DNA of 64,000 nt from Phycomyces nitens (Eukaryota > Mucoromycota > Mucoromycetes > Mucorales > Phycomycetaceae). The notes beneath the pieces were generated by a model that made no database searches, had not been told where the DNA came from, and saw nothing but the letters and a program-made list of their open reading frames with translations. Within the stretch, counting starts at the first letter, position 1. Every line of letters starts with the position of its first letter. This document shows, piece after piece, positions 1-48,767 of the stretch. The position numbers were made by a program, and so were the translations under genes. The stretch lies in assembly GCA_022702545.1 (NCBI GenBank), contig JAHRBC010000002.1:7750001-7814000 (forward strand). The letters are read 5' to 3'.

Positions 1-1014
1 AATGAGGTAGAACTTTCCTACCCGGCTCTGCCCAACACGCTGTCCATTTCTAAACTTGACATAAGCAAAGAAAGCACCAACATGTCCAAACTCCCACTCA
101 ACACACTCTCGAACTTTTGACATGGCATTATTGATGAGGCGCTCCTCAGAAGTCATGTCAGGTCTTCTTCTGAATAGCTTGACCACCAATACATTTGCTC
201 TGTATGCCGGATCACCATAGATGGCATAATGGTGATCACCATTATCAGCATGACAGAGTTGCTGTTCCAGTTGAGCCATGATTCCACTGGTCTCAAGCAT
301 TCTCTGATCGTGCATTGATCCAGCAAACGGCCCAGACATGCTCACCGTGATTCCATCTGGAGTCACAATGGACTGGAACTTCAAACCATGTTCCCTCTTA
401 TGACCATTATAGTTGATCTCCTGGTCTTCCCCTGGTCTGCATACGGAATTTAGGGTTCCATCAATGAACCCAATAATGCCAGTATATGGCGACCCTTTTT
501 CAGCAATGGCATTGCTGAAGCGCCACAAGTTGAATGGATGCAAGTGATCCTTGGTAAAGTGTAGTCCCCTGGCATACTTGTCATGCAGAAGATCAACCAT
601 CGTGTTGAAAACCGTATATAAAGTACTGCGATTAACCTTGAAGAAGTGCTCAAGGTCAGCATACCGCCCAGGATATGACAATCGTCGAAGAGTGATTGCC
701 AATGCTGACAGTATATCCCAAGAGAATTGGTGGGTTGTATCTTGGTGTAATATGACAGTTGATGGCAGTCCCATGGCATTGACAATGTACTCCATCTGAG
801 AGTAGGTGAATTGAAAGAATTCAATACATGAAGCATCACCCAAAGCTTGGATCTCTGCACGTTGGTGAATACTTTGCTTGTTAAGTAGTGCATAATCTTC
901 TACAGCATCTTGGAACTTGCTATGAGGGATATCAGTCTCGGCAGAGTAGTTATCAAGACGTTCTGCATTAAGTTGGTAGATGGTATTGCGTAAGTTGCTT
1001 GTATATCCAAACAT
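1..1014 (-). CDS. DDE superfamily endonuclease (HARBI1-like), partial, runs off left edge
   Basis: An uninterrupted frame of 338 codons starts at the ATG at 1014-1012 (MFGYTSNLRN) and has no stop before position 1. It shows a helical N-terminal half, then a DDE nuclease core: GFIDGT (first Asp, about residue 185), GHKREHGLKFQ, SMHDQRML, GDPAY (second Asp, about residue 266) and VRECVEWEFGHV (Glu, about residue 308). This order is that of HARBI1/PIF-type transposases. It is a different subfamily from the Harbinger transposase at 20392-21762. The frame is intact as far as visible, so it could be active. It lies upstream of, and divergent from, the OTU gene. Whether it belongs to E1 or to a further nested element cannot be decided here. 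Confidence 0.8.
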   Translation of the reverse strand, partial: MFGYTSNLRNTIYQLNAERLDNYSAETDIPHSKFQDAVEDYALLNKQSIHQRAEIQALGDASCIEFFQFTYSQMEYIVNAMGLPSTVILHQDTTHQFSWDILSALAITLRRLSYPGRYADLEHFFKVNRSTLYTVFNTMVDLLHDKYARGLHFTKDHLHPFNLWRFSNAIAEKGSPYTGIIGFIDGTLNSVCRPGEDQEINYNGHKREHGLKFQSIVTPDGITVSMSGPFAGSMHDQRMLETSGIMAQLEQQLCHADNGDHHYAIYGDPAYRANVLVVKLFRRRPDMTSEERLINNAMSKVRECVEWEFGHVGAFFAYVKFRNGQRVGQSRVGKFYLI

Positions 1015-1375
1015 TTTTATATATAAAAGAAGTGTGAAAAGTGAAAGAGAAAGTAATAGAAAGCAAAAGAAACAAAGTAAATTATACTCTCAGATAATAT
1101 TGTTTAAATCGCAGTTATTTTATTCTCAAATATCATTGGCTAAATATTTTACTAAAAAGGATTACTAATATTTGTCAAGATCATATTTTATCCTACCAAA
1201 ATAAGAATTTTAAAAATTATGAATCCCCAAATGTCTCTATTAAAGGCTTAATTTTAATGACCCATAAATCATATTACATACTTTATTTGCGCTTCTATGA
1301 ATGCCTCCCAAGTGCCCGTAAAGAACTCTAAATTAATTGCTTCATGTGCTTGTCTTATTTTTACATAAATAATAG
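1015..1375. other. Divergent intergenic region
   Basis: AT-rich DNA between the minus-strand nuclease gene and the first recognisable exon of the OTU gene. It probably carries both promoters and the 5' exon of the OTU gene; an ATG at about 1298 is a candidate, but I could not join it in phase. Confidence 0.4.
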
Positions 1376-3001
1376 AATCTGTAGATAATTCTACTGCCAA
1401 CTCTGTTTTGGTTTCTGAGCCAACTTCCTCTGTTCAGAACGACGATAATGACTATTCTTGTAGTAAGAAAAGAGTTTTTTTTTTAATTAGATAAATGCTA
1501 AACACATTATGATTATCTGTTTATGTTTATTAGGTGAAGATTTCGAGGTGGATGAAGACGCCGAAGATTGCGATGATGATGAAACTGATCCTACGAGTGC
1601 TTTGTTGAAAGATGAAAAAGATGCTGATCAATTTGATGAAAGTCAGCGTACAAAATTATATTGGTCATTTCTTGAAACTCTTGTTCTTGGTCTAATGACT
1701 CGTGTTTTTTATATAAAATTTAGATCTGAAAAAAGCCTGTTCATCCAACAAAGAGGTCTTACTAGCACGTGTAGAACAACTTCTTCATGGGATATACAAC
1801 ACGATCACTTTATACAGTACCCAGCAAGAGATTTCCGATGCAATCAAAATTTTGGAGAAAACAGAGGCAGCAATTCTTAAGCCAGCTATAAATATGGATC
1901 TCTTGATGCCTCCTTCGACCAACACCAATCGCAAAGGCAGAAAGTCAAAGAGAGGGGTTAAGAGTGGAACAGGACGGCTGAGAATCCTCCAAGAGCTATT
2001 CGATGAAAGCCAAAAAAAAGAAATCAAAAAAAAAGAAATCAAAAAAAAAGAAAAAATCAAAAAAGAAAAAGAGGAGCTTAACAAGAAGAAAAGACAGTTG
2101 GAGATTGAAGAAAGACATGTCAACCTCAAACAAAAAAAAAGAAAGTTGACATTGCTTGTATGTGCTGTTGATGGTAGCTTCTCTTATCCAGACAAAAGCA
2201 CCATTGAAGCCAAAAAGGATATACTAAGCGCTGCAGGAGATTTATCTCATTGCTCCTCTGCATATGATAGGTATGTATAGACTAAAAACAGTGCTTATAA
2301 ACAACTAAATATTGGGCCTATTTTCACTTAGTTTACAAACATATCGCAATGCAAAGAAAGATGCTCCTTTCCAATGGATACACACACAGTCAACTAGAAA
2401 TGCAATTGCTGCCATTCATAGTGTTGGTGCTGATGGTAACTGTGGCTTTCAAGCTGTCAGTTTTGGTGTACACAAGGACCAATGCAAATGGATAGATGTA
2501 AAAGGTGATATGCTAAAGATGTATATGAGATACAAAGACACTCTATACAAAGCAATTGGCACAGATGCTGTAGTCCAGTATGAAGAGGAGAGAATGATCA
2601 ACAGACTACAATCCAGCAAATCGCCTTGTTTGGGACAAACAGATCTATCCTTGTGGTTCAGCACCTTTATCTGCCCTCAAATTGTTGCTGACACATACCA
2701 AAGACCTGTTATCATCTACACGTACTCTGAACATTCTGTCAGAACCACAGGCAAACTGAATGCATACCATGAATCTCAGGTTTATTGGCCACTCATCCAC
2801 ATGGAATTAACATCTGCAGACAATCCAATCACACTCCTTCTTTCGTTTTCACACTTTTACTATGTTGAATTTCAGCGTACTCCTACAGGCCGAATGAAGA
2901 AATTCGATAAGCCAACTCTCAACTTTGACCATGTTCAAATTAGAGAGGCATTCCCTCAGACATGCAACAGTGTCGACTACTCGGTCCTTTTTAAGAGTTA
3001 A
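1376..3001 (+). CDS. OTU-domain cysteine protease-like protein of element E1 (multi-exon, 5' exon unresolved)
   Basis: Exons 1376-1462, 1534-1689, 1724-2270 and 2332-3001 join in one frame across three GT-AG introns, one of them only 34 nt (1690-1723), giving about 486 codons. The order is an acidic N-terminal stretch (EDFEVDEDAEDCDDDETD), a Lys/Glu-rich coiled region with KKKEIKKKE repeats (about 1990-2140), then an OTU domain. That domain has GADGNCGFQAV (catalytic Asp and Cys, about 2430-2460) and a downstream SHFYYVEF supplying the His (about 2853-2876). OTU proteins cleave ubiquitin or related isopeptide bonds. OTU domains are also known in some DNA transposon proteins, especially Mutator-like ones, which fits this location. 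No transposase core is fused to it here. The 5' exon and start are not resolved. The frame is intact. Confidence 0.65.
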
Positions 3002-3227
3002 AAAAAATATATTATATCAATTACAGTACTAAAATTCACTTTTACAAAGAAAAGTCTACATTAGTTTTTTTTGATATCCTTGTGGTGGGAGTGTATTGAG
3101 GGAGTGTATTAAGAACTAATTACAATCCTCACAAAAAGCCTACATCAGACTTTTTTGGTTTTTTGATGGGCGGAGTGTAATAAGAGAGTGTATCAAGAAT
3201 CTCCCTATTTTTATTATGTTATAGCAG

Positions 3228-3448
3228 GAAAGAGCAAGCAGTTCTTTTCTTTTGGAAGATGAGGTATTTCAAATGGATGACAAGGCTGAATCCCCAATCA
3301 TGACAGGTGTACTATAAGTTAGAGCTTTTTTGTTGCTCATCTATTCTCAATTTAATATTAATATAATATTTCTACTGTTTGATATAGGTTTACACCACTA
3401 GGAATGAGCAATGAGCCTTCATCTAAGAGAAACAGACTAAGTCTTTAA
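3228..3448 (+). pseudogene. Two 3'-terminal exons of an unidentified E-family gene
   Basis: Exon 3228-3306 (ERASSSFLLEDEVF...) joins through a GT-AG intron (3307-3401) to 3402-3448, ending MSNEPSSKRNRLSL and a stop. The same exons occur inverted in E2, split by Plavaka C: one side is at 35255-35430 and the other ends at 27079. In E2 an upstream exon is also present (35499-35654), spliced by a GC-AG type donor. In E1 that upstream exon is replaced by unrelated sequence after the OTU gene, so this is probably the tail of a gene whose body was lost. I do not recognise the product. Confidence 0.4.
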
Positions 3449-4124
3449 TATTCTTTAGGCTGCTCTTATTGGTTCTCTCATATTTTTAGTATATGTTTTA
3501 GTGCACTTTTTCTTTTCCTCTTTTCCTTTAGCTGTTTTATCTTTGCTTTGGTCCTCTCCCTTGAAATAAAATCGAATAACTCTCCATCACGTAAGATTGC
3601 CACCTTAATAAATGCCCGATTGGCATCTTGTATACCACATCTTCAACTCTGTTGTTTTTAATCTAGGAATGAAACACACATCTCGCCCTTTTTCAAGTAC
3701 CAAAAAAAATGAAATTTTTTTATAGCTGTATTATGCCGAGGTTAGTTTATATTTCTTTTCTTTTCTTTGCTCTACTTTTTTGAAGTAAAACTAAATGACC
3801 CTCCCTTATGTAAGGTTGTCAATGACATAAACATCCAATTGGAATCTTGTATACCACATCTTCAGCTCTGCTATCTTTAATCAAGGAATGAAACACTCAT
3901 CTCATAATTTTTCAGACACTAAAAAAAGGTGAAAACTTTTTACAGCTATATTACACTAAAGTTTGTCGTTCCCCACCTCCCCACCTGGGAATCTCTGTAG
4001 AATATGCATATTGTTTTCTTAATGATGTACTCATTCTGCTAATTACCATTATATTCGAATTAGTTTTAAATCTTATAAGCTGACTTTACAGCAATATATT
4101 TTCTATGGTAAGAATATTATAATA
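3449..4124. other. Non-coding 3' part of E1 with an internal duplication
   Basis: No gene. Two similar blocks (about 3580-3750 and 3790-3960) both contain a 'taccacatcttca..tctg' stretch followed by 'ggaatgaaaca', so the region arose by an approximate 200-bp tandem duplication. The same two blocks are present inverted in E2 (26500-26960). The last three bases, ATA, are the target duplicated by Plavaka A. Confidence 0.55.
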
Positions 4125-4364
4125 CACTGCAAAAATCAATTTAAATCATAATTTAATAGTTATCTGGAATTATCAATAATATGAGTAAAAATATTTATAA
4201 CTCAGGCAAAATCTTGCATTAACAATAGAGATTGATTTGAATGTTTTTATTGGCTGAATGATATTCAATCATTTGATTTAATATTCTCAAGTAAAAAAGT
4301 ATTTTTTAACTATTAGTACTGGATACTTTGTACTCCTTCTTTACTATACTAAGTAACAAGAAAA

Positions 4365-7300
4365 ATGTCTTCCATTCATAATTCCAATGAAGTGCAATGC
4401 AGATGCTCGAAATGCTCTCGCAATCATTCTGGTTTCACAATGATGAGCAAAAGAACTGCAGCTCGCCATGTCCAAAGCGATGAGGACAAATTGTTTAACA
4501 GTCAGATTAATAGTAAATAAGCTACAGAAATATAGACCTTAATAATAATAATATATAATCCAAACCAAATAGCATATTCAAGCCAAGTAAACACCATCAA
4601 TAATACTATGGAAATAGACCAGGCTGATGAGGGTTTTGAGTGTAATTTTATTTTATTTACCAAAGGGGTATTCAACCGTATTTAAATTGTGTATCCATAG
4701 ACAATATTTCTTCTCCTGGTACACCTTTACCAATTGAGACTATAGAGTTTCTCTTACCTCTTTCAGTGGAAGAGTCTATTTTTGGAACAGGTGAAGAATA
4801 TATTGATGCTTTCTCTGACTCTGAAGACTATGAGAAGAGTGATGACGATGAAGAGCAGGACCAGGATGAAGAAACAGGTGCAAAATAAAAAAGGATAATG
4901 TTATTACTAAAAGCAATATATTAACATGCGGCTCAATCAAACTATAGATAATTTACCAAACCTCCCTCAAGATCTATGGCACCGACTGATAACAGTGTTC
5001 ATTGTCATGTTTATATCTTGTTTTGTTGTTGATGAAGGCAGCGTCATTTTGATTACCTTTATCAATTTGGTTCTTGAGCACTATGACGAGGAATTTCGTC
5101 TTCCTACTAGTATTCCTGGCTTGAAGAAAATGAGTGGATTCAGCGACTTGACAAGTGGCGTGTCAAAATATGTAGCATGTGGAAATTGTCATAGTATCTT
5201 CAGTGATGTTAATGGAGCTCCTAGTACATGCGACTTCAAGAAACTTGGAAGCAATAGAGAGTGTGGAAATGCATTGTACAAAATCAGCAACAGTAAAACT
5301 CTGAGACCAAACCGCACATATGTATATAACTCCCTCAAAACAGCTTTGAAAAAATTGTTCCAGCGCCCTACGTTTGAGAATCAAATCAACAAGTGGAACC
5401 GTGGACCAAAGATTGCTGGAATAATGTTTGACGTATACAATGGAAGAATGTGGAAGGAGTTCGTGGATGAAGCTGGTTTACAATTTGTTGCCAAGGAAAG
5501 GTCATTGCTGCTCACTCTCAACATCGATTGGTTTCAACCCTTTGATGGGGTGACATATTCCTGTGGAGCAATATACCTGACGATCAACAACCTCCCAAGA
5601 GAAGAGCGAAATAAGGCAGAGAATGTCATACTTGTGGGTCTGATGCCTGGACCAAAAGAAGCCAGCACTTCAGAGATAAATAATTATCTTTGGCCTCTTG
5701 TTGACGAGCTTAAAGAATTGTACACAGGCATCTATATCAACACCCACACCTGCTCCAAGACTCTGGTCCGTGCTGCTCTGCTAATGGTTGCATGTGATAT
5801 ACCTGCTGCAAGAAAAACTTGTGGATTCACTTCGCACAACAGTACAAATGCATGCCATAAGTGTAATCACCACTTCTATCGGTTTGAAGGTACCAGCATC
5901 GTTGATTATTCTGGCTTCAAGTTTTCTGAATGGACAGGCAGAACCAAAGAAGAAAATCTGAAGCATGCTATTATGTGGAAGAATGCAGCAACTAATTTGG
6001 AGAGAAAAAGATTGGAGGTTGAAAACGGGGTTTGCTGGTCAGAGCTTCATCGACTAGGATACTTTGAGCCCGTACGATCAACCATAATTGATCCAATGCA
6101 CAACCTTTTCCTGGGAACTGCAAAGAGAATGGTTGAAAAATGGTTATTCGACAATCTTCTCAATGACCATGATCTTGTAGAAATGCAAAACGGAGCAAAT
6201 ACCATGACTCTGCCACCAGACTATACCACATTGACTACGAAGATTGGAAAGGGATTTCCTTTCATGAAAGCTGATGAATGGAAATCCTGGTGCTTGATAT
6301 ATTCTCCTGTCGTGCTTAAGTCCAGATTACGCAATGATCTTTTTGTCAACTAGATCCATTTTGTTGATGCATGCCAATTGTTGACAAAGCCAAGTATCAC
6401 CGATGAAGAGTTAAGCCAAGCTCACAACAGTCTAGAGAAATTCTGCATTAGATGTGAGAAATTGTATGAACCTGATCTTCTATCACCCAATATGCACCTT
6501 CACCTTCACCTGAAAGAAACGATCCAAGATTTTGGCCCAATATACGGATACTGGCTTTTTAGCTTCGAACGATACAATGGCCTAATCAAAGGTTTCCACA
6601 TGAACAAGAAGAATGGCTTTGAAAAAACCTATATGGATAAATTCATTGAAAATGCATCAAAGGGCGATTTTTACAGATCACACCTCACCAACCCATCTCA
6701 CCTCTCCCTCTTCCAAAAACTGTCTACCAGTATAACAGAAACCTATGCCACAATCCCTGCCCAAAACAATATGATCACCATATTTCACTTGCCTACGTTT
6801 GTTGACTCTGCAACGGAAACTGAAATATCCATATTGGGAAATGAGTCTCTTCCACCATCAGCCTTGCCATTAAAACTCCAAGAGCCAACAACAATGAGAA
6901 CGGCCGAGTACAATTGCCTTCTCAAGTTCTATCGCATTGAGTACCAAGACAATCTCTTGCAAAGTGCCAAAGGTGTGGTCCAGAGCTCAAATTTTGTAAA
7001 TGACCGAATCCAGAAGATTCCATACATTAATCTTCTTGGCCAAGTCTACAAAAGTGGTGAAGGGTCAAACACAAGAGGGTCATATATCCAGGCTATATAT
7101 ATCGAGAAAAATAGTGAGTCAAGCTATACCTATGCTGGCTATATCAAGTATCTTTTTGCCCAAAACCCACCCATGACAATTTTATGACAAGGCTCAATCC
7201 TCAGCATGTCTTTGCTTTTGTTGAATGGTACGAAGTTCTTTAACATCAGCCAAGAATAGACCAAGGAATTGATATGTATAAGCCAGCCTTTCAGAAATAT

Positions 7301-7423
7301 GACTATGACAACATTCTACCAGTTCATCGAATTCTATCCCCAATTGCAATCGGCAATCAAGCTTCTGGCCGTGGTGTAGCCAAAGTCATTGTTATTCCAT
7401 TGCCTAGAAAAATTTATGCTTAA
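4365..7423 (+). pseudogene. tnp2/Plavaka transposase of element A, inactivated
   Basis: Exon 1 (4365-4512) encodes the Cys/His motif (CRCSKC...GFTMMS...RH). Exons 4588-4641 and 4701-4877 are acidic linkers, and the main exon begins near 4926. The tnp2 core shows NIDWFQPFDG (first Asp), GLMPGPKEA, VACDIPAARKTCGF (second Asp) and DPMHNLFLGTAKRM. The C-terminal domain has INLLGQVYKS and, in a shifted frame, HVFAFVEWY and LPVHRIL, ending IPLPRKIYA. Damage: a TAG at 6351-6353 where relatives have Trp (NWISFV in C), a frameshift near 7180, and a stop near 7240. The acceptor of the main exon is uncertain. All catalytic-type acidic residues remain, so the loss looks recent. Confidence 0.85.
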
Positions 7424-7522
7424 TCTTCTTATTATTATTTTTGACTTTCTTACATAAAATATGCAATATATATATGCCAAAATCAATATAGATGAAGGAG
7501 TGAAAAAGAGATGCTTGTTGAT

Positions 7523-8754
7523 TTATTCACGTTTTGACCATGCGGGAATTTTGGCTACTAAGCCGCGAGAAATTGTCTTTTGCATGACTACGTAATGACG
7601 AGTCTTCAATTGACTGGCTTTCTTTCCTAGATCTTTTTTGGCAAGCATGTCCAAAAAGTCAAACAGCTCATTCAGCTATACAGATATATTTTATCATTAG
7701 ACATAAAATATAAGAAATATCAATCTGCCTGTGTTTTACCTCATCACTCCTCCAGTTCGGACGAAGTACTCTCATAGTGATCTCCGTGTCTGTTTCATCA
7801 TCTGACATTACATCTCTATGAAAGACGCCACTGGCATCCCTGTTGAATCTTCTTTCAACAGCTTCCTTGTGCTTTACAAAGGTTCTCTTTCGTCTCTTGA
7901 AAAGCTAAAGTGAAACAAAGCATAATATATAAATATTTGCGTATTTTATTTAATATTCACTTACTTCAGTTTTTCGGTTGCCTCTTCGGTTTGCTGTCTT
8001 TTTTGCTTCTCTAAGCTCTGGCACAAGCTTGCTATCAGCCAAACGGTTATAATAATTATTTATAATTATTGTGCCCAGTTCTTTTCCTGTTACTGATGTT
8101 GATTCAGGCTGTTCACGGGCATATATGATCAGAGCATTTGCTAGATTCTGATTGACATCATCAGCCAATCCAACACTGACATCCCAAGTTGGCTTCTCTT
8201 CATTATCCTTGATCAAACTGGGATCGTCTGATTTAAGATGAAAGTTTTTCAAGTAATCTCGAATAACTTTCTGAAAGTATATATTAATAATATATTTTGA
8301 TATTACTGTTTCATTTAGAACTTACAGATAACTTTGGATATCTTGTTGCACTGACGATATCCTGAAGGCTAACTTGTGAGTTAGAGACAGAAAGAATATC
8401 TTCAGGTTGGATGATATTCACAATCTCATCATTTTCTACCACGGGCATTTGGACTGATACTTGGTCTCTGGCTTGGCAAGCAACAAGACCATTGAGAGAC
8501 AACATCATTTGCCTTTCGTTATCATACACCGCGCCAACTTGTGTTGATACACCAGTTAACTTTTTATCAACAGTGGATAAAAGGCCAACCATAGTGTTAT
8601 ATTCACTCCTGGGAATTGTTACATCGTCAGATCTAGAAGCAAGCAATGGGCGAGGGGTACCAACACGACCAGTGTTCACTGTGGTAAGTAGTGATCTGGA
8701 TGATGCGGCTCTTGCAGACATGTTCTTCTTTTCCTTGTTTAATTGTTGGCTCAT
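7523..8754 (-). CDS. Conserved Plavaka accessory protein, element A (intact, 350 aa, four exons)
   Basis: Exons (transcript order) are 8754-8326, 8270-7965, 7904-7740 and 7675-7523, of 429, 306, 165 and 153 nt. All GT-AG introns are phase 0 and the sum is 351 codons with no internal stop. The product has a low-complexity Ser/Arg N-terminus and a helical segment. The exon-2 domain contains NEEKPTWDVSVGLADD and ends KKTANRRGNRKTE. Then come LFKRRK, an acidic VMSDDETDTE, PNWRSDE at the exon 3/4 boundary, and a C-terminal IPAWSKRE. The same layout occurs in B and C. It converges on the transposase gene with about 100 bp between the stops. I do not recognise a named family. By analogy with TnpA of En/Spm it may be a subterminal-repeat binding or regulatory protein, which is inference only. 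Confidence 0.8.
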
Positions 8755-9431
8755 GATTTACAGATTCTGGTATTTATTCAATTGTAAGTATATGTCTGAT
8801 AGTCATCTCTCTATAAAATATAGCTGTTCAAGTATCAACATACATTTTACTATTTAGTGTTAAGGTCTGCTTGAAAAAAATCTTTGGGTATTTTGATTAT
8901 AAATATAAAAATGAATTGTTATTCTTATGACATATCAATCAAGCAGAGGATCTATCTGTGTTCCAGTCGGTACTTGCCCGATATCAAGAAATGTTGTCTA
9001 TCTTAATATTTATAAGATCTAGATTTGACAATGATATATATATATAATTATTATTTAATATTTTCAGATCTTTAGTTTGATTAATTACTTGAATATTCAT
9101 TCTAATCATATAACTAAATATTCATTTGTTTTATAAAATAATATCTTTTATGAGTATGCCTATTTCTATTGTTTTTATATTTTTATTTCCTAAACCATTC
9201 ATGTAGCACTGAGAGTACAACGAATATTACAGACTGGGTTTGCGCACAGTGTGTTAATCGCCTTTTTTGCATACTTGGTATTCACAACAAACATATTTTT
9301 ATTTTTTTATTTTCAAAAAAAAAATACGTAATCATCTCTCAGATTCTACGGCTATTTCAAGGATTGTTTTTTATTCATCCATTTTTTTTCTTTCTCTACT
9401 TTTTATTATCATCCAAGTACTTCTTCTAAAG
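8755..9431. other. Region between accessory gene and candidate micro-exon gene, element A
   Basis: AT-rich, with no long reading frame. It probably holds the divergent promoter of the two genes. Two further exon-like blocks bounded by AG and GT occur at about 9207-9279 and 9345 onward, and would be the 5' exons of the micro-exon gene. Their splice sites are imperfect. Confidence 0.35.
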
Positions 9432-9976
9432 CGCGGTTTGCCATATATACTCCTGGCAAACAAAATCAAAATTATTCTGGTATACAAAGATAAGTACTAT
9501 GTTCTTTATTACATTCGATTATTATTCTTACTGATACATATTCTATTAGAAAAGTTATGTATCTATATAGCCGCCCTCCAGAAATTCATACCTCTAGTAA
9601 GTATATATATTTGAAAAATATTTTTTAATATTCTTACTCATTGCTATCTCTACTTAGTATTCTATTTCAAAAGTTTGTCTTTGCCTTTATTAAATCAAAG
9701 TGTTCAACATTTCCAAGGACTATATATAATAAGTAAGCTGGTATAAATATTTAATAATTTTTCTCATAATATTCTCTAGCTCTAAAAAGATATCAAGCAA
9801 ATCAAGGAAGCAAGGTATTATATAATTTGATTAATAGTATCAAAATCAATCATATTAATAGCATTTGCTATTTATTATAGAATATATCCATAAAGCAAGT
9901 ATCTACATCTCTCTCATACAATCAAGAATTATATATATATATTAGAATAAATATTATAGAGCAATTATTATTATGA
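9432..9976 (+). CDS. Candidate third gene of Plavaka A, built of micro-exons (3' part)
   Basis: Five exons, 9432-9493, 9550-9596, 9658-9732, 9780-9814 and 9881-9976 (62, 47, 75, 35 and 96 nt), join in one open frame of 104 residues across four GT-AG introns and end at a TGA. Readable landmarks are LPYILLANKIKIILVYKD in the first exon and QHFQGLYI in the third. The first resembles LPFLFMPLASSIIRNCNNK of the equivalent exon in B, and FQGLYI resembles FQRLYL in C. It lies distal to the accessory gene on the opposite strand. 5' exons are not resolved. No function is suggested by the residues, which are hydrophobic and basic. Confidence rests on recurrence of layout, not on family recognition. Confidence 0.4.
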
Positions 9977-10443
9977 GTGATTCTTTTTTATTCAAAATAA
10001 AAATAAAAATAAAAATAAAAATATATTCCTACAAACCAATTTCCAATTGAGAATATTATTTTTAGAATTAATACCAAAAAGAACAGCTTTTCCGAAGCAA
10101 TTGACCGAATCATTGTCATCAAAAAAATGCAAAACACTGCTGTTATTACGTGCCTAGATATATGTTCTTCTCAGACAGGTGTTCTCAAACAGTGCATGTT
10201 TTTATTCTTAATTTGTAATAGTATGTATGTTTGCTTTTGGAATAGAGTTTATACACAATCTTTATAACTAAGCTCACACTGAATTTTCAAATCTGACATG
10301 TTAATATATAATATCTGGTCAGTTATTCTTTAACATACTGACTGGGTATTTATTAAAATTTATCTATCAGATATTAAATTAATATATAAAATTACAATTA
10401 TAAACTTTTAATATTGTAATGATTTAGATTATTTTTTGCAGTG
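9977..10443. other. Right subterminal region of Plavaka A
   Basis: Very AT-rich non-coding DNA ending in the terminal inverted repeat ATTTTTTGCAGTG. It includes a short (aaaat)n-like run near 10000-10020. Confidence 0.5.
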
Positions 10444-10796
10444 ATATGTTTACACTCTTTAATTAATCATATTGCGCATTCTCTATTCTCCTTCTACTGC
10501 ATCTAGTATTTACATCTGTACATTTCATATAGTGGCATTAATTCAAGAGATGCTTGGTATACCAATTAACAAGCACAATATATACTGGTATGCTATCCAA
10601 AACAATATGCTCGGTTTATTTGATCGCTTCATTCTCTGACCACGATATCTTTATAGCAATTGATGAAGACCAAAGGCCTTCCAAGTCATAACAACATGTT
10701 GTTGGCATCGTGTATAGATTGAGTAAAAGGTTTGTACCATATATGTTTTATAATATTAAATAGTATTTGCTTTTGGTATGTTTCTATATTATTATT
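10444..10796. other. Non-coding part of E1 between Plavaka A and the Harbinger insertion
   Basis: No gene. The same sequence lies inverted in E2 at about 26010-26365, uninterrupted on both sides, and so provides the empty-site reference for both insertions. Confidence 0.65.
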
Positions 10797-11016
10797 AGGG
10801 GTATTCAGACGTAAAAGTTGAAAACTAAAATCAAAATTGCTATAGCCAATCACATTGATTTACATCTGAATACCCCGGTTAAGAACAAATTCAAATTTTG
10901 GAAAGTCTTCGCTGTCTGAATATACATTTAATGTGCGCTCTTATTAGATGTGACGTAAATACTGATTATCATTTGCATTATTTGTTTCTTTCTTTCTGAC
11001 AATTTTTATACTCAAA

Positions 11017-11927: not shown

Positions 11928-12141
11928 TGCACCAAGAGTACTTTAAGGTGTAGGAAATATAGGCCTTTTTTTCAACTCAGAAGATTTTTTTATTCAAATA
12001 AAAAAAGACTTTTTAACAGATCCTATTGGTTTGGGCAAACAAGTAAAATACAATAGTTTTTTTTTGTCTATAAATTGACAGCAAATAAAACATATGAAGC
12101 ACTTGTTTCCTTTTTTATCTTACAATCGAATCACACAAAAT
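11928..12141. other. Junction of Harbinger and Plavaka B, boundary unresolved
   Basis: Non-coding. The left terminus of Plavaka B must lie here, because the Myb-like gene stops at 11927 and B exon 1 starts at 12142. No clear CACTRCAAAAA end is visible, so B may have lost or diverged its terminus. Confidence 0.4.
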
Positions 12142-23440: not shown

Positions 23441-23487
23441 GTCCCTCAATCGATTGCTAGTCTTTGATACAAGTCATTAGATCGTGG

Positions 23488-33737: not shown

Positions 33738-34139
33738 GTTCTATCAATAAATAATTATTAATATATTTTGACAATTGGAATATGGTCAGTATACTTGCAA
33801 GTAAAGAGGTTGACTGAAAATAATGAATCATCTTGTAGTTTTATTGTTATTTAACAGCATTGTGTACACTCTTGTTCTATATCTAGACATCTTTTTCAAC
33901 CTAATAAACTATAAATTACAAAGATATGAAAATGACGGCAGGCATATTCTTTTGGATTATCATTTTTATTGCCCGCATTTTATTAGGGTCAAACAGCCTT
34001 TTAATACAAAGTATTTATTTTTCCTTTTTATTTCTTATATTCTTTTGTGCCTAAATATTACTGCAAAATACTCTGATAATTAATTCTTTTCTTTCTCTTG
34101 TAAATATATTTTTTACTCAATATATTTTATTATTCATAG
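33738..34139. other. Region upstream of the accessory and micro-exon genes, element C
   Basis: AT-rich and non-coding. Probably a shared divergent promoter region. Confidence 0.35.
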
Positions 34140-36265: not shown

Positions 36266-36389
36266 CTCCCCCCAGCCAGGTTCAATTATGATTGAAACGA
36301 CTTGTTAGTCTAATAATCCAAAAAAACAAAACAAAACAAAAAAAAACCGACTTGGATAAAAAAAAAAAAAAATGTGAAAAATAAAAGTT

Positions 36390-39300: not shown

Positions 39301-41555
39301 CTCTGTAGCCATTCGTTAAGCTGCTTTTGTATTTCAGGCATGTATTTATATGGTAAGGGGTATTGTCTAATATAACAATTTGTTCCGTCTTGCTTCATAG
39401 GAATACATACTTCTGAAGCAGGTACATTACAGAATGTACCGGGTTTGATGGCTTCGTTCTTCTGTATGGCCCCCGAAATGTCTTGGAAAAAGTGTTGTCT
39501 TTCTGATTCAGTTCCATAATTGCTGTTCTCCGGATTATAATAATTATGTGTATCAAAGTTTAAATCTTGAGGTTCTGAGTAGTTCTCTTCAAATTCTTTA
39601 GGGTAACGATAAGCAATTCCCGTCATTCGCATATCCAACTTTTCAAATATATCTGTTCCCAACAATATATCAGCTTGGGCTGCTATGTGATTAGGGAAAT
39701 TTACGACTTCAAATTGGTGGGTACAGCAAAATGGAGCATCTCCATACACTACTGACAGTAATTCTGTCTGACCTAATCTCTCAGGATAATTGCTACTTTC
39801 ATGTGCAAAGTTTTTTATCACACCCTGCACTGGAAAGATTTGTTTGTGCGCAAAGTATTTATTAAATGTGTATTGGTTAATACACGTGGTGTCGGCACCA
39901 GAATCGCACATGGCCATGAGCTTGGTTCCCTCTATGACAATAGGTGTCAATAACAATTTGTTGGATGGATTTGTTTCTCCATTAATGTCTGCCAACTTAC
40001 AGTCTTCGTTGTCGAAGGGGTCAGAGCTCATGGCGTTGCTCATCGCATCTTGAATCTGGTTTCTACCAGGGTGCACAACTCCGCCGCCACTGTTGTTCCT
40101 GCGGTTGTTATTGTTGTTGTGGTGGTGGTTGTTGTAGGGAGCCCACTTGCTCTTGTTCAAGCCATCAGACGCCGAAACCGTGTTGATGGCAACGTTTCTT
40201 TTGGCTGCCAGGTTCTCTGGTCTTCTTTCCGGGTATACATCGAAGTACGCGGTGCATTTATGACCCCGGAAGTATGAGCCTTTGCAAAACTTGCACTTGC
40301 GCTCCTCCGGCATTACGGAAACTTGTTGTTTCTGCTGGCTGACCGACGTGGCTCTGAAAGGGTAGTTCTTTGAGCCCAGGTTTCTTGGAGTATTGCCAAT
40401 TATCCTGGCCTCATCATGGTTGACCATGTCCTTTCTAGTCTTCTTCCCTTGCTCGGCCTGGGTGCAGTTTTCCTCATCGTGATCTGCCTTATACCCACCG
40501 TGTGCGCCACAGAAGAGATCGTTGGACTCTCTTGCAAATTTCCGTTTGTCCCCTTTGTTATGACGAGGGGCAGACACTCTCTTGGCGGCCTGGGTTACTT
40601 GTTCAACAGTCTTGATGAAGCTGTTGTCTTCTTTGCCCGTGCTAAGGTTGTTGAAGATTGGATCGTACCACAATGATGGAAGACTCTTTATGAAGATTTC
40701 TCCCAGTGTCGTGTCATCACTTCTGAATCCGGCCTTGTTGGCCTCCTTCAAAAAGCGCATGGAGTAGACCTCCACCAATTCCTCCTCGCGAATTGTCATA
40801 TATAAGACACTCAGTCTGTTCTTACCCCGGGTGATATTAGAGTTAAATTTCTCCTCCATCGTTTTCTTGGCCTCTGCCCATGATTCTGTCATAAACAAAG
40901 TCTCCTGGACCCAATGGTGGAAGGTAGTATGGAAGGCCAAGGTCAGTAGTTTCTTCCATCCATTCTTTCCTCCGAATCCAGTCAGGCTTAAAAAAAGCTC
41001 GTATGCCATGGCAAAAGCATTCACGTCTTCATAAACCACTTCTCCTGGGAAATACACCATGTTCATAGCATGGATTTGAAACTTTGGTATGTCGTTGAGC
41101 GTGTAGACACAGCTCACCGCTCCCTTGGACTCATGCCCTTCCGCTTCTTCGTTTCCTCTTGCATTGGCCTTCAACATCTCAATGTTTTTCGAGGCCAACA
41201 GGAGATTCAGTCTTGCCATCACTATCTGTGTTCTTTTGTGAAGGCGTTCCTTGGCAATCATGTCTTCCTCGGATTGTAATCCTGGCTGGTCCATGAAAAC
41301 CATCATTTCTGAGTGGAGGTTGTTAAGCTCCTGCTCAGTCGACTTGATGTATTCAAGGAACGAAGGTTGTTTGACCTTGTCCTTCTTCTCAGTCATAATC
41401 AACTCCTTTGTAGAAGAGTTGTACTCTTTTGACGATTCTGTCTTGTTGGACAAAATCATCTCGGTCATCTCCACATCCTCAGCAACCGATAGCTGAGCTA
41501 CCTGGTTGTTGAGTGCAGATTCAGCAATATCGTTGGTTTCACAATGGTTGGCCAT
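36390..41555 (-). pseudogene. Gypsy-2 gag-pol polyprotein with C-terminal chromodomain and AT-hooks, two stops
   Basis: One frame of 1722 codons from 41555 to 36390. A gag-like region ends in a Cys/His knuckle of unusual spacing (CKFCKGSYFRGHKC). Then come protease (MCDSGADTTC), reverse transcriptase (FSKLDLKNAYHSFKV, SYVDDCILFS), RNase H (FYMQTNASLYGVSAIL, DALSRLYP), integrase (HKMGHFGIEG, VVDVATRYIIARPLP, QSDNGREFGN) and a chromodomain (EYVEVDEIRDHK, LFLVKWKG, ENSWISASE). It ends with two KRGRPRK AT-hook-like motifs. Only two stops break it: TGA at 38250-38252 (expected Trp before TDHSALVY) and TGA at 38010-38012. The chromodomain marks it as a chromovirus, a lineage whose integration is guided to histone marks. 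Confidence 0.93.
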
Positions 41556-41609
41556 TTGACAGAATTTTCTTCTCTTTTATGGTAAAAAAAATATGCAAAT
41601 TGAAAAAAG

Positions 41610-41835
41610 TGTAGCAAAATTACTAAAACACGATAAGTCAATTTTACTTGATATTTATTTTTAAAGTAAAAGAGAAACTGAAATTCTGTCTGTTGTAGGA
41701 TTTGTGTATAAATACTTGACTGGGTGTTAATAGGGCTTTTAGATATTAGTGTAACTTAAATCTACTTGAGTGGATTTTGTTACTTAGTTTTTGTTAAGCC
41801 AATTTGTAATAGTATTTAAAGGTGGTTTTACCACA
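41610..41835 (-). repeat. 5' LTR of Gypsy-2
   Basis: 226 bp, TGTGGTAAAACC...TTTTGCTACA on the minus strand. Appears identical to the uninterrupted parts of the 3' LTR. Confidence 0.95.
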
Positions 41836-41920
41836 ACAGGTACGTTGATTTTGTCATCATTGACCAAGAAGTGTCTTTGCTGCTATTGCTATTATTAGTT
41901 AAATAATCTCTTACCTACCC

Positions 41921-42797
41921 ATGGAAAAAGTAATTAGAGTATACTCCAAGCTTATCACGTCAAACTTGAAGGGCGGTAGAAATACCAGTTTGCTTGTTGA
42001 GCGCTTTGCTGTTCATAGCTTTGTCAGTTCAGCAAACAGCTCTCAGAATTATCCTAGTACAAGTCAGCCGTCCACATATAATGAAGCAAGTTTCTTAGAT
42101 CTTCCAGATGGTGTAAGTGCTGCCCAGCTATGGGAGCCATTTAACTGACATGCCAGCTTGAATGATGATGACTTGGAAGGTGTCAGCAGCCCTGTTGTCA
42201 AGAATACTTTGGCAAAGTAGTATGTGCGAAACAGTGGTATGAACAGTATTGAACTTGATAACCCGACAATTGTTGTTGCTTCTTGTCTTTGGAAAAATTC
42301 AACCGTACATTCTTCATGTATGTACCGAAGAATAAAAAATGAGACCAGACGTGGCAATCATCATGTGATGTTCACCTGTCCATACAGAAAGTGAGTATTG
42401 GTATTAGTCAAAATACAAAATAGAGATCACTTGCATTTTTTATATTTTTATCTAGCCGTCGCAATATAACTATTCAAAGCTGGTTTGTTGGCACCGTGGA
42501 ATTTTATTTTGAGCATAAAGAGGTTGATGGCACACCGCACCTTCTGGCATTGTTGAAGTGATGAAAGAGCATGGTACAGCAGCCCATGACTCATCTGTGC
42601 CAATCGTAATACGGCGGTCACACAGCTCAACTAGACAAACAACCCAGCCAAAATATGCTGTTAATGTGGATGACATTCAGCATCAAGTTGGGCTCATCCA
42701 GTACCCTCCGAGTAGTAATCAGTTCTTTATCATTGCACCATATTACGTGTTTAATGACAATCTGCGTGTGACCATGGGGAACCTTGCCACTTTATAA
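41921..42797 (+). pseudogene. Divergent tnp2-like transposase C-terminal fragment in E2
   Basis: A broken frame begins MEKVIRVYSKLITSNLKG. After stops it reads RRIKNETRRGNHHVMF, GTVEFYFEHKEVDG, HLLALLK, VDDIQHQVGLIQYPPSSN and FIIAPYYV. A GT-AG type intron at about 42390-42455 separates two parts. The order resembles the C-terminal domain of the Plavaka transposases (RGSYIQALF, GQIQYLF, HVFAYVHWY, ILPVHRILL) but is far more divergent. It is probably the remnant of E's own transposase, placing E in a separate branch of the same superfamily. Several stops; non-functional. Confidence 0.5.
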
Positions 42798-42894
42798 AAA
42801 TTTTCTTTTTCTTTTTCTTTCCTTATAAATATCAATACCAAATAAAATAAAATAAAATGGCTAATAATGTCAAAAACAAAAAAATTGTTTCAAA

Positions 42895-43206
42895 AAAACG
42901 GTAGCATAACTACCGTTTTGTTCACACAGGCAAAAAATTATTTTTCTCAAAAATGCGCAACATCTTTAACACCAAATAAAATGCTCATTTCAATAAACAA
43001 CGTTGCCTAAAAACTTACGAGCCCTTTATATGGTGCTACAACTACCTCATTGCCAGATGAAAAGACATTTCATGCAACTTTTATGAATCGGGATCAATGA
43101 CATTACCTTTCAACCACAATCTGCGGAGATAAAGTGCTCTAAAATCATAAAAAACGGTAGTTATGCTACCGTTTTTGGCACAGCTACCGGTCCTTCCGCC
43201 GTAGTG
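42895..43206. repeat. 5'-terminal arm of E2 with palindromic subterminal repeats
   Basis: Contains ACGGTAG-CATAA-CTACCGT (about 42899-42917), its counterpart at about 43154-43172 and a further GGTAGC next to the CCGCCGTAGTG end. The other E terminus carries the same ACGGTAG/CTACCGT units (25687-25720). Such clustered subterminal repeats are the usual transposase-binding sites of CACTA elements. Confidence 0.6.
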
Positions 43207-43254
43207 CATTTGACATAAGCAAAGGTATGACTATCAGCTTGAAGGGTCTGTGGA

Positions 43255-43634
43255 TGTTAAATCAGAGGAAAACAAAGCACGGACAAGAGTACGGTGAGAC
43301 TTTGTTTATTAAGAGAGAAAGAATTTGTCAATCAGATGAAGACTATTGCTATTCGTATTGTGCGTTTATATAGACATTGAGATGAGTGCTAGTGATGATA
43401 TGATGATATCATGTAATGTCTGTTCTCTCTACCAACTATTAGATATGACTTGTTATTTTACTTAGTACTATTAACCAGTGTGTTAGTACTAGTTGTTAGT
43501 GTGTCTTTACGTATGAATAATGTATTTGGAAAGGTACACTCTTTAGTGCACTTCCAGTAGGTCGGTTATTCAATATGTTTCAATATTGGTACTTTGTGTT
43601 AATGTTTCAATCTATGATTATGTTGGATACAACA
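43255..43634 (+). mobile_element. 380-bp solo LTR, copy 2
   Basis: TGTTAAATC...GATACAACA with GTGGA at 43250-43254 and 43635-43639. Differs from copy 1 by only a few bases. Inserted in the transposase gene of D. Confidence 0.93.
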
Positions 43635-43691
43635 GTGGATTTACAAGTGAGTTGACAAATAAATACTGAATCTGACCAGTAAAGGCACTTA

Positions 43692-45032
43692 CAGACTCTT
43701 TCCCATAGTAAGGAGTCAATTCAATATCCGCCAAATCAAAAAAATAACTTCTTTAACTCTCTCATTGCGTTATACCCACTTTTGCTTAACAAGTCATGTC
43801 TGAAAATATACGAGTGAAAACAGACAACATTTAACAGCAATAAATGTGTTTATTAATTTTATTTAGTATTTGGTGGAGCCACCACCTGCCTTTTTCATTT
43901 CAGCTATATGATTTGGCATTGACATGCAATGTCTTTCACATACTTCAACAGGTATTTTCTTCCACTCTTCATGGATTGCAGAATCCAGCTCCTTAATATT
44001 TTTTGGAGCTGGTACTCTTGCCCTTACCATGCGCTCAAGATAAGTCTACAAGTTCTTGATAGGACTGAGATCTGGGCTATTCGGCGGCCATACCATTACT
44101 GGAATACCTTGGCACTTCTTCCAGTCCTCAGCCAGCTTTGACTTATGACAAGGAGTATTGTCTTCTTGATAAATGAACTCTCCATCATGATGTTCATTCA
44201 AATTGTCCATGAAAGGGACAAGTTTTCTGCCAAGTAAGTTGATATAGGCATACTGGTCAAGAGTGTTGATTATAGTCTTCAAAGGGCCGACTCCTCCTGC
44301 CCACACACAGCCCCACACCATTACAGAACCACCGCCAAACTGCATTCTTGGCATAATACAGTCTTTCCTGAACTTCTCTACTAGAAAGTGCCACACTCGC
44401 ATGTTTCCATCCTTAGGAAAAAGCATGAACCTAGATTCATCACTCCAGACAACATGATCTCATCTTTGATTTGTTTCTTTGGGGTGATGAGCAAAAGCTA
44501 ATCACTTCTTTTTGTACACGTTGGATAGCTGTGGCTTAAACACAGTGCGACATGAAGACATTCCAATCCTACAAATGGCACGGCAGATGGTAGTTGTTGA
44601 GATATAATTGCCCATTATGTTGCTCATGGCTTTAGTCAGCTCTCCGAGTATAGCCCTACAATTCTTTTTCATTTCACTCTTAAGATGGCATAAATAACGC
44701 TCATTAAGGATCTTTGAACGTCCTTTTTGCTTTCTGGCAAATGTAGTGCCTGTCTGTCTCTATCTTTGTATAGTCTTTTAGACAGTTGCTTTGGGTATAC
44801 CAGTTTTGGCTGAAATGACCAATTGTGTAATGTCATGAAGAGCACCTCCGATGATCAGCTCTTTCTGGTAATCTGTAAGCTGCTTTCTCTTATAAAGAGG
44901 TTTATTGTTAATTTTGTGAGACATAGTGTGATTCGAAGGAGAAAAAAGGTATAGAAAGAGAAAAACAAGAATATAGTATTGATATGCTATTTGGAAGAGT
45001 TTGAATGATGACTCCTTACTAAAAGGAGTCTG
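43692..45032 (-). mobile_element. Tc1/mariner element Tc1-3, inside Plavaka D
   Basis: Imperfect terminal repeats CAGACTC..TAGTAAGGAGTCA at both ends, flanked by TA at 43690-43691 and 45033-45034. 1341 bp. Removing it with one TA restores the D frame through TGQIQYLFVN. Confidence 0.9.
43863..44924 (-). pseudogene. Tc1-3 transposase, degraded
   Basis: Starts MSHKINNKPLYKRKQLTDYQ with helix-turn-helix segment DITQLVISAKTGIPKATV. A stop follows, then a second half with MLFPKDGNMRVWHF, GGGSVMVWGCVWAGGVG, YQEDNTPCHKS (second Asp) and SPDLSPIKNL, where the expected Glu of PIE appears as Lys (PIKNL), followed by a stop. It ends GGGSTKY near 43866. Several stops and the changed catalytic position make it inactive. 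Confidence 0.82.
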
Positions 45033-46232
45033 TATTTGACAGTCATTGTTTTCTTGAAAGATTGCCTGTATATATGATCTGCAGCAAACTGCACCATTGC
45101 TTTCTTTGTATATCTGGCCAAGCAAGTTGATTGACAGGAACTTCTGGATCATATTGTTGACAAAGACATTGCCAAACAAAGTTTGCTTATAACTGCCAAG
45201 AGAATCATCATCATAGGAGTCCCTGTAGAACTCAAGAAGATGATCATACTCTTCTTCTATCATTCGTTTATATTGTCCTAGGGAAAGTGAGAATGCTGAC
45301 GAAGGAAGAGATTCATTGCCTTTGATGTTGACAGTACTGAACTGCACTGAATCAAGGAAGATTTTTAGGTTATACCTAGGAGAAGCAACTTGGAAATACA
45401 GGGTGGTGGTTGCAGTGGACGCGTGGACAATTGGAGCAGGAGCAGGAGTAAACTCAACGAGTTCAGAAAGCAATGAGATATATGATGTATTTCCAATGAC
45501 AGCCATCATTCTACAAGCAATATCAACCTTGCAAGAGTCCTCAAGATATTTCTGCATGAACGTGGCCTCAAAGCTGTCTCTCTTGTTTGTCATGTAGCTT
45601 TTCAGTATACTATTGTACCTGTCGAAGCTGAAAAGCCAATAGCCATATACTGGCCCAAAGTTGACAATTGTCTCACGAAGATGCAGATGCAGATGTAGAT
45701 GCATGTTAGGTGAGATAAAATCTGCACTATACAAGTTCTGACATCCTTGTCCAAACAACTCTAAACAGAAATGGGCTTTGGCTAACTCATCTTCTGATAT
45801 ACTGGGCTTGCACAAGTATTGGCAGGCATTGACAAAGCACATCCAATTGTCAAGATTGTCCCTTGGCAACCAGTCTTTTAGGAGGACAGGCGAGTATACC
45901 AGGCACTAGGACTTCCATTCGTCAGCCTTCATAAATGGAAAGTCCTTGCCAATCTTCTTTTTCAGTGTGCTTATGTCTGGGGGAAGGACCATCTTGTTGC
46001 CCTCTTGCTGCATTTCGGCCAAATCTCTGTTGGTGATCAGACCAGCTGATCTCCACTTCTCCATAACTCGCTTTGAGATTCCCAAGAAGAGGTTATGCAT
46101 CGGGTCAATGATGGTGCACTCGACTACATTAAAGTACTCAAGATTGTGGAGTTCCAACCAACAGACTCCATTCTCCTTTTCTATCTTCTTTTGATCTGCC
46201 TCACTCGATGCATGCTTCCAGGCAAGGGCATC

Positions 46233-46613
46233 TGTTGTATCCAACATAATTGTAGATTGAAACATTAACACAAATTACCAATATTGAAACATATTGAATA
46301 ACCAACCTACTGGAAGTGCACTAAAGAGGGTACCTTTCCAAATACATTATTCATACGTAAAGACATACTAATAACTAGTACTAACACACTGGTTAATAGT
46401 ACTAAGTAAAATAACAAGTCATATCTAATAGTTGGTAGAGAGAACAGACATTACATGATATCATCATATCATCACTAGCACTCATCTCAATGTCTATATA
46501 AACGCACAATATGAATAGCAATAGTCTTCATCTTATTCACAAATTCTTTCTCTCTCAATAAACAAAGTCTCACCATACTCTTGTCCGTGCTTTGTTTCCT
46601 CCTGATATTAACA
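46233..46613 (-). mobile_element. 381-bp solo LTR, copy 3
   Basis: Minus orientation; plus strand reads TGTTGTATCCAACAT...CTGATATTAACA, with GCATC at 46228-46232 and 46614-46618. More diverged than copies 1 and 2. Splits the transposase gene of D between conserved stretches. Confidence 0.92.
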
Positions 46614-48190
46614 GCATCATGACGATTGTCTGATTCAGTTTGAGACACCCACTTGGAAAAGACAAAACCAGAATAATCAACACTGCCATTCCCTGGGAGA
46701 CGGGAGAACTGGCAGTTGCACTTGTGGCAGGCATTAGTCATCATGTGGGACATGAATCCACAAGTCTTGCGAGCAGCAGGAATGTTGCAGGCAACAAGGA
46801 AAAGAGCAGCACGGACAAGAGCACCAGAAGGACAGCGCACAGTAGGGATCACCACACCCACATACAAGGATTGGAGCTTGGCAACAAGAGGACGGAGGTA
46901 GTGATTGATCTCACTGGTCTTGGCTTCATTTGGGCCAGGCATGAGGCCAACAAGAATGGTGTTCTTTTTCTTGTATCTTTCATCTTGGGGTAAGTTGTTG
47001 ATGGACATGTAGATTGCCCCACAAGAGTAAGTAACCCCATCAAAAGGTTGAAACCAATCAATGTTTAGGGTCAGCATAATTGATCATTCATGAGCCACAA
47101 ATTGCTGACCATTGCTGTCTTCTAGATTGCTCCACTTGGCACCATCATAGACATCAAACATCATGCCTGCAACTTGCTGTCTATGTCTCCAGTGATTGAT
47201 GCTGCTTTCAAATCCAGGGTGACAAAAGAGAACAGACAAGGCAGAAACCAAGAAGTTGTATATGTACACCTTCTTGGGCAGTGCTACGTTTCTCAAAGGC
47301 TTGAAGAGATTGGCGCCACATATACTGCCAGAAAGTCTTCTGAAGTTGCAGCACTGGGGAACATCGTCAAACACCATGTATGTCTTGTGGCACTCGCCAC
47401 ACACCACGTAGCGCTGGACACCTTTTGAGACTTGGTTGAACCTTGTCATGGAGGAAAGACCACTCAAACTCAATGGCAGATGGAATGATTCGCCAAAGTG
47501 CGCCAAAACCTCATTGAGGAACTTGATCAAAATTGCTCCTCCAGAGTTTACAACATATTTTGAGATGAAAAAGGTGGCAAAGACAGCAATGAAAGCATGG
47601 GTGTTATCCGCTGGCATGTTAGAGGATGAGAATTGTTCTATTAGGGTTTTGTATCAATATATGATATCTATGTTTTACTTGTACTTTTACTAACCTTCAA
47701 ATTCTTCAGCTTCATATTCAGAGCTTTCCATCGTATCAAGCTCAATAATATCATCATCTTCATTTTCAGCTATAAACAAAAATTGGTAACAGACACAGGT
47801 AAGTTTTCCATTGTTTTTTTTTTTGACGCAAAAAAGTAAATATTCAAGTGGTTGCAATTTATTATGCAATTTGAATAGAATTTTATACTTACATTCAACA
47901 TGAGCATCAACATCATAGACCTCGGCATCAATCTCCATGTTATTATCATTCTCTATCTGAATCACTTCAGCTGACAATGCTATTTTTTTAAATGTTTAAT
48001 TACACTTTGAAATGCAAACAAATTATATACATATATATTACTTACAAGAAGCTGTCTGCATAAAATGTCTGACAAGATCATTATCAGCATGTCTTCGTGC
48101 TGTTTGGGCAGATATTGCTACAAATCCTTGGACATCAAGAGAGCAGACCGAGCACTGGCATTGAACTTTGTTATTGAAAGTGTTGTACAT

Positions 48191-48767
48191 ATTGTTTAAA
48201 GAGGTTATAGGATTGATATAAAGAAAAGTGGTTCAGGAACATAGTTTATTTTGCCTATTTATAGTTCAGGAACCATTTACATTACGTGCATGCTGTTATT
48301 ATAAATATTAACAAACACACTTAATGATTGTATTTGAAAATTGATATTATTTCATTTTAAATATATGACTATATACCAAGTAGTTGTTTCGTATATACGT
48401 CTTTTAATAATATGATATCATGTTTATATCTCCAACTCTTCATTAACCAAAGTACATCGTCATTAAAATATACTTTAACTAAATATATATTGCAAGTAGT
48501 CTCAGCTGCTCACTCTTGCCCATATTTGATAATTTATTTTCAACATCGCCAAGAATATTAATTTTGCAACCTTCAAAAGACAGAGAAAATATTGTAGTTT
48601 AATAATCAACGAAAATAAAGACATATTCTAATGTCCATCTAATAGAACTATCAAATATTCTTAACTCCGTCTAGAGTGAGCAACCAAGAAAAGAGCTAAT
48701 CCAAGACATATACTCTCCTCGTTTCAATTGATGTATTCAGAGTTGAAATCACATATTTTTTGCAGTG
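48191..48767. other. 5' flank and terminal repeat of Plavaka D
   Basis: Non-coding, 577 bp, between exon 1 and the terminus. A similar spacing holds in C (about 590 bp after subtracting Tc1-2). Presumed promoter plus subterminal region. Confidence 0.5.

Follow-up and report, generated by a model that had tools for sequence, protein, structure and literature searches.

Nested transposons on an old CACTA/EnSpm element of Phycomyces nitens, with a probable inversion between two opposed copies of element E

Introduction

The window analysed here is a stretch of 64,000 nucleotides from Phycomyces nitens (assembly GCA_022702545.1, contig JAHRBC010000002.1, positions 7,750,001 to 7,814,000; C4:7750001-7814000), in which transposons lie inside one another. 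The locus raises the question of the order in which these elements were inserted, and of how one of them, here named D, comes to be found in two pieces of opposite orientation. An initial annotation, made from the letters of the sequence, had described a seven-level nest inside a Plavaka element with a complete relative insertion order. The present analysis indicates that the locus is very probably a nested cluster built on D, an old CACTA/EnSpm element, with an inversion produced by recombination of two opposed copies of another element, E.

Verification of the insertions

The window was extended by 50 kb leftward and 10 kb rightward within a genome assembly of 49 Mb in 11 contigs; negative positions lie to the left of the window. 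For 11 of the insertions, 120 bases of joined flanks were aligned to an uninterrupted copy, and the target-site duplications were compared on both sides. The uninterrupted copy for a long terminal repeat (LTR) inside the element Gypsy-2 was the other LTR of the same Gypsy-2, and the two E copies of the nest, E1 and E2, each act as the empty site for the insertions of the other, as had been proposed.

All 13 two-sided insertions checked in the window have matching duplications. For 12 of them, an uninterrupted copy agrees with the joined flanks at 89-100% identity along most of the joined sequence, the case of E in D being judged by eye. In the other 11 of these 12, the alignment covers 100-120 of the 120 bases and contains 92-120 identities, the lowest proportion being 102 of 115; they comprise CACTA-A, Harbinger, CACTA-B, CACTA-C, Gypsy-2, the solo LTR in Gypsy-2, two solo LTRs in D, Tc1-2, the TA-flanked insert in D and the LTR-like insert in Tc1-1. 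The thirteenth, Tc1-1, was compared at its join only with a 71% relative, and aligns through. The nesting and most borders of the initial annotation are thereby confirmed, including the duplications ATG (CAT), ATA, ATT, AGT, ACAGG, GATAT, GTGGA and GCATC and the TA sites, all of which were seen; AGG (CACTA-B in Harbinger) and CCAC or ACCAC (the LTR-like insert in Tc1-1) are added to that list. Such nesting goes far past chance.

Element D is split at one target site shared by the two E copies

The pieces of D and the two E copies are arranged as follows.

22431..22720, minus strand: inverted left piece of D, reference D positions 3111-2821, 93.8% identical to the D reference
43207..48767, plus strand: right part of D, reference D positions 3109-6559, with three inserts; right end GCAGTG adjoining GGT at 48768-48770
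3206..22430, plus strand: E1, covering E positions from about 1577 up to the 3' end, in pieces 3206-4124, 10444-10796 and 22060-22430; 3' flank ATG and D
25671..43206, minus strand: E2, full-length, in pieces 25671-27079, 35255-35654 and 41836-43206; 5' flank D (CAT), 3' flank Gypsy-1 (TAG)

D is a 6.56-kb element. Its right part is oriented as the reference copy, in which the transposase lies on the minus strand, and all 15 fetched copies stop at the same base as window position 48767. The other end was located in 10 of these 15 copies, each with matching 3-bp duplications. E is about 3.34 kb long with the ends CACTACGGCGG..CCGCCATAGTG, its longest stop-free frame being at most 124 codons; it is a non-autonomous CACTA-like element and very abundant, with 649 first-look candidates in the genome.

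To the right of E2, D runs forward from position 3109, and to the right of E1 it runs in reverse, from 3111 down to 2821. The two oppositely oriented pieces therefore have just the three bases CAT in common, at a point where the reference D is uninterrupted, and on this ground the preferred reading is one D, divided by a single E insertion, with the left piece inverted. E1 (plus strand) and E2 (minus strand) are themselves opposed; the 3' end of E1 and the 5' end of E2 carry the common ATG/CAT and together rejoin D, forming a two-sided insertion against the reference. The 3' end of E2 is bordered by TAG/CTA, and the 5' flank of E1 is lost.

D and E are both multicopy, so that two D copies, each with E at the same site, might lie opposed here by chance, with no inversion at all. 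Such a coincidence would demand that E had hit one and the same base of a 6.56-kb element on two occasions, and that both targets belonged to one old D lineage. The left piece is 93.1-93.8% and the right piece 94.0-94.4% identical to each of 13 of the 15 fetched copies, which is about equal divergence, and none of the 34 other D copies spanning the query exceeds 95% (among the best 40 of 102 candidates scored). A chance pairing of two D copies is thus very unlikely, and a single split D is retained.

Y and Gypsy-1 between the two E copies

Two further elements lie between the inverted D piece and E2.

22721..22892, plus strand: Y, a 172-bp terminal segment of a further CACTA element (CACTGCAAAAATGACCCC), lying in D and cut by Gypsy-1
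22894..25670, minus strand: Gypsy-1, represented by its 3' half, with an LTR at 22894-23369, integrase and RNase H domains and, as judged from position, the last part of reverse transcriptase; the 5' half is absent

All five fetched Y copies begin at the same base with differing flanks and continue beyond the Gypsy-1 junction; therefore, Gypsy-1 lies in Y, and Y in D. One Y copy contains an open reading frame of 834 aa with about 52% identity to the D transposase, and Y is tied to CACTA only through this identity. The far end of Y was not located in a 7.6-kb stretch containing one copy. In Gypsy-1, integrase and RNase H are matched by Pfam, no Pfam match for reverse transcriptase was found in the piece, and the LTR has copies elsewhere. 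The Gypsy-1 flank of E2 (TAG) is situated just upstream of the RNase H domain, hence in reverse transcriptase by position, and a 71% relative on C8 reads without a break through the point holding E. The junctions of Y and Gypsy-1 are one-sided here, with exact element ends. The proposed chain D > Gypsy-1 > E1 does not hold: Y lies between D and Gypsy-1, the 3' flank of E1 is D, and the Gypsy-1 flank is found on E2.

The closest Gypsy-1 LTR, on C7, was followed as a lead to the 5' half and turned out to be a lone LTR within the 6 kb fetched. With the upstream part of a relative as query, four places were returned including itself, none of them the E-interrupted remainder by coordinates (C1:7875623 was not inspected, and sensitivity is possibly reduced at about 71% identity).

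Proposed recombination between opposed E copies

The split of D at one CAT common to two opposed E copies, together with the Gypsy-1 flank on E2, is what recombination between two E copies of opposite orientation, one in D and the other in Gypsy-1, would be expected to leave; the argument is the one applied to Galileo in Drosophila (PMC2775673). In the proposed history, D received E at the CAT site, for which both sides are preserved. Y entered D, Gypsy-1 entered Y, and a second E (E-b) entered Gypsy-1, each of these steps being documented by a one-sided junction with an exact element end. Recombination of the opposed E copies would have inverted the intervening DNA (22431-25670 at minimum) and swapped the flanks of the two copies, so that E1 and E2 would be chimeric in sequence. 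Further insertions, which may have come before or after the inversion, fill E1 and E2, namely CACTA-A, Harbinger > CACTA-B > Tc1-1 > LTR, X > Harbinger-left, CACTA-C > Tc1-2, and Gypsy-2 > solo LTR. A second exchange or a deletion bordering Harbinger-left may have cost E1, X, Gypsy-1, Y and D their 5' halves at this locus.

Several points weigh against this history. The loss of the E1 5' flank places the reciprocal CTA duplication beyond checking, the chimerism of E1 and E2 would be a prediction only, Y, Gypsy-1 and E-b each have a single junction here, and an assembly error is possible.

The inversion could also have been made by an aberrant transposition in which one end was taken from each of the two E copies (alternative-end transposition). 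DNA transposons are capable of such events, and the account of the Galileo element, as excerpted, treats them as a rival to recombination (PMC2775673). According to the same excerpts, most of these events bring deletions or duplications, whereas the D site here closes with exactly CAT; a variant of the hybrid-insertion type resembles recombination in all but one respect, the copies being identical (PMC2775673). Alternative-end transposition is accordingly given little weight, and recombination of two opposed E copies remains the preferred origin of the inversion.

The left border of the nest

The left border is formed by two elements.

1235..3205, plus strand: X, the 3' part of a 4.4-kb element with terminal inverted repeats of about 190 bp, inserted in E1; 97.8% identical to L030
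1..1238: right part of Harbinger-left, an element from about -1374 to 1238 with DDE_Tnp_4 on the minus strand

X interrupts E1 at about position 1577, and the 4.4-kb X family is intact elsewhere. An open reading frame on its plus strand (2309-3001) has no Pfam match; judged by eye, from a DGNCGF motif, its product resembles an OTU-type protease. Harbinger-left cuts X at 1235, with X (ATT) on its right flank and sequence unrelated to X on its left flank. Of the other Harbinger-left copies, five were inspected; three could be bounded at both ends, and each of these has AAT on either side. Further to the left follow a repeat array with a spacing of about 43 bp, a Helitron, a piece of another Gypsy element and an E copy.

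On extending leftward, the initial annotation had expected the E1 5' end, the Gypsy-1 5' half and a D terminus by GGT; this order is absent from the 50 kb. Also missing from the same 50 kb are the E1 5' half, further pieces of Gypsy-1 or Y, the X 5' part and, with up to 4 substitutions allowed, a forward D left end. D positions 1-2820 are present there only as part of a complete, reverse-oriented D copy with a GGA duplication, and the three E copies are each complete, separate elements. In the assembly, junction patterns for the 5' borders E1/X and X/Harbinger-left gave no match; the X/Harbinger-left junction was sought with up to two mismatches allowed, and another pattern search is weak because it allowed no mismatch.

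The left border arose by deletion or exchange at Harbinger-left, or by a misjoin, with deletion or exchange favoured. A misjoin in repeats for part of the arrangement, chiefly at this border, would find an opportunity in the 10 other copies of Harbinger-left at 98-99% identity across the queried 1.24 kb, and the two flanks of Harbinger-left do not belong to one element. Against this, an assembly of 49 Mb in 11 contigs suggests long reads that would span 2.6 kb, and many junctions are base-exact. A misjoin is thus held to be a slight chance, and deletion or exchange is kept for this border.

The left region forms a separate nest. The second D copy at -31254..-17906 (on the L011, L012 and L013 side), 98.5-99% identical to the reference and flanked by GGA, is interrupted in turn by an element that has the ends CACTGG..CCAGTG and is flanked by a GTG duplication. 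The Helitron reading frame (L009:2052-6928) encodes Helitron_like_N and the start of PIF1, followed by a stop in frame; the repeat array (L009:7440-8550, with the ~43-bp spacing) follows the Helitron, and pieces of it also precede the Helitron.

Insertions within E1, E2 and D, and the depth of the nest

The remaining insertions are listed below.

4125..10443, plus strand: CACTA-A in E1; duplication ATA; join compared with an uninterrupted copy
10797..22059: Harbinger in E1; duplication ATT; DDE_Tnp_4
11901..20025, plus strand: CACTA-B in Harbinger; duplication AGG; empty site in L043
16138..17992, minus strand: Tc1-1 in CACTA-B; TA; Pfam HTH_Tnp_Tc3_2 and DDE_3; copies elsewhere
16785..17287: LTR-like insert in Tc1-1; ends TGACA..TGTCA; duplication of 4-5 bp; empty site in L044
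27080..35254, plus strand: CACTA-C in E2; duplication AGT; another copy lies 41-45 kb to the left of the window
27263..28873, plus strand: Tc1-2 in CACTA-C; TA; empty site in the L013 copy; DDE_3
35655..41835, minus strand: Gypsy-2 in E2; duplication ACAGG; LTRs identical over 226 bp
35792..36171, plus strand: 380-bp solo LTR inside the Gypsy-2 3' LTR; duplication GATAT
43255..43634, plus strand: 380-bp solo LTR in D; duplication GTGGA; join compared with an uninterrupted copy
43692..45032: TA-flanked insert in D; ends CAGACTC..GAGTCTG; Tc/mariner type by ends and TA only
46233..46613, minus strand: 381-bp solo LTR in D; duplication GCATC; join compared with an uninterrupted copy

Harbinger (10797-22059) is a PIF/Harbinger element by its DDE_Tnp_4 transposase, terminal inverted repeats and 3-bp duplication, and Gypsy-2 is a Gypsy element by its reverse transcriptase, RNase H and integrase in this order, chromodomain, LTR pair and 5-bp duplication. 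The insert in Tc1-1, which had been called a solo LTR, is LTR-like by its ends and duplication only.

The Harbinger site is located about 340 bp from the E 3' end, and the 3' end of E1 belongs to the E in D. For this reason, unless the switch point fell within the last tenth of E, Harbinger with everything inside it is carried by D > E rather than by D > Gypsy-1 > E. The securely two-sided chain is D > E > Harbinger > CACTA-B > Tc1-1 > LTR, with six levels, and the elements seen would give at most eight if Y and Gypsy-1 were on the same chain. The initial annotation had missed the Y level. The complete order that had been claimed does not follow, because with the probable exchange of flanks between E1 and E2 the original carrier of each insertion is unassigned. 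The nearest-copy identities are 95% for D, 97% for Y, 98% for the Gypsy-1 LTR, 98% for Harbinger (first 1.1 kb) and 100% as printed for Tc1-1, and the Gypsy-2 LTR pair is identical. Judged from these values, the inner elements are closer to their copies than D (93-95%), which agrees with the order as a consistency check and not as dating.

Class of the carrier elements

The elements called Plavaka in the initial annotation are CACTA/EnSpm elements, because they show three features together: a Transposase_21 match, duplications of 3 bp, and CACTG/CACTA at the ends. Fragments of CACTA-A, -B, -C and D match Pfam Transposase_21 (tnp2) at 3.3e-16 to 4.5e-11, all above the cut-off, and 3-bp duplications with CAC..GTG ends occur in CACTA-A, -B and -C and in all 10 two-ended D copies. 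EnSpm/CACTA elements of fungi share these three features in the excerpted description (PMC12730594).

For Plavaka, the profile PF18759 reached 14.1 bits against a cut-off of 26.3 (E 0.028) in one of four proteins, the other three not being listed. Elsewhere in the genome, one place lies barely above this cut-off (27.2 bits). The part of PMC12730594 consulted gives Plavaka ends as TGT..ACA or CATCA..TGATG, neither of which is found on the CACTA elements of the nest, and describes Plavaka and EnSpm transposases as recognisably similar. The likeness to Plavaka thus consists of a related transposase and a weak Pfam match, and the difference lies in the ends; given the similarity of the two transposases in that source, the Plavaka label is a near miss.

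The region right of the nest

Just right of D, a Tc1-like element (49002-50352) has inverted ends and HTH_Tnp_Tc3_2. A PIF1 helicase piece lies at 59555-60457 (plus strand), within a stretch that is 71% alike to the Helitron at -5191..-3110. A tubulin gene (54300-55676, minus strand) and a SIS-CBS protein (61867-63039, minus strand) are also situated right of the nest.

Comparison with known nests and inversions

Nesting of this kind is a known process, and the locus illustrates it at high resolution. The combination of CACTA, Harbinger, Tc1, Gypsy and Helitron elements is in keeping with a fungal genome. Mucorales are listed with EnSpm, PIF/Harbinger and Tc1/mariner elements, and Mucor with Helitrons, in the available portion of PMC7928374. 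For Mycosphaerella graminicola, 78 nested clusters of 7.5-63 kb are described, some with verified duplications (PMC4522978, in part), and the nests of wheat chromosome 3B reach up to 8 layers (PMC4290129, in part). As far as these sources go, the present nest resembles both in having elements within elements, some borders proven by target-site duplications, and similar size and depth. It differs in its CACTA base, in its mostly DNA-transposon levels, and in an order scrambled by inversion. Keyword searches of the literature on deep nesting in fungi found little.

The Galileo inversion 2z3 of Drosophila buzzatii, from the excerpts of PMC2775673, likewise has opposed copies at its breakpoints and further nested insertions; its exchanged duplications would correspond to the putative exchange of flanks between E1 and E2. 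Compared with 2z3, the putative inversion here comprises a small segment inside a nest, three of four flanks survive, and the chimerism of the copies is predicted only.

Exchange at E copies and its meaning

Matching 3-bp duplications were found in 14 of 20 E copies, these being the full-length, boundable ones from the best 40 of 649 candidates scored and not a random sample. One of the six mismatches (C4:7611989) is invalid owing to a duplicated 3' end, giving 14 of 19; one of the others is off by one base and four of the 19 are off by two or three. Point mutation hardly accounts for mismatches of two or three bases, and small end deletions might. Another E copy, at -12690 to -9512 (right end L009:478-488), has unmatched flanks, with Gypsy on one side and apparent CACTA coding on the other, and is a possible second exchange product. 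The E family may be a frequent exchange partner. That it shuffles the genome, with copies recombining often, a sizeable share carrying flanks from two places, and nests repeatedly cut and flipped at E, is a tentative and rather doubtful extension.

The locus provides a case, exact to the base and with an uninterrupted reference copy at most levels, in which target-site bookkeeping alone can mislead on insertion order once recombination swaps the flanks of two copies. If exchange between E copies should be common, the share of mismatched duplications would offer a cheap genome-wide count of past rearrangements.

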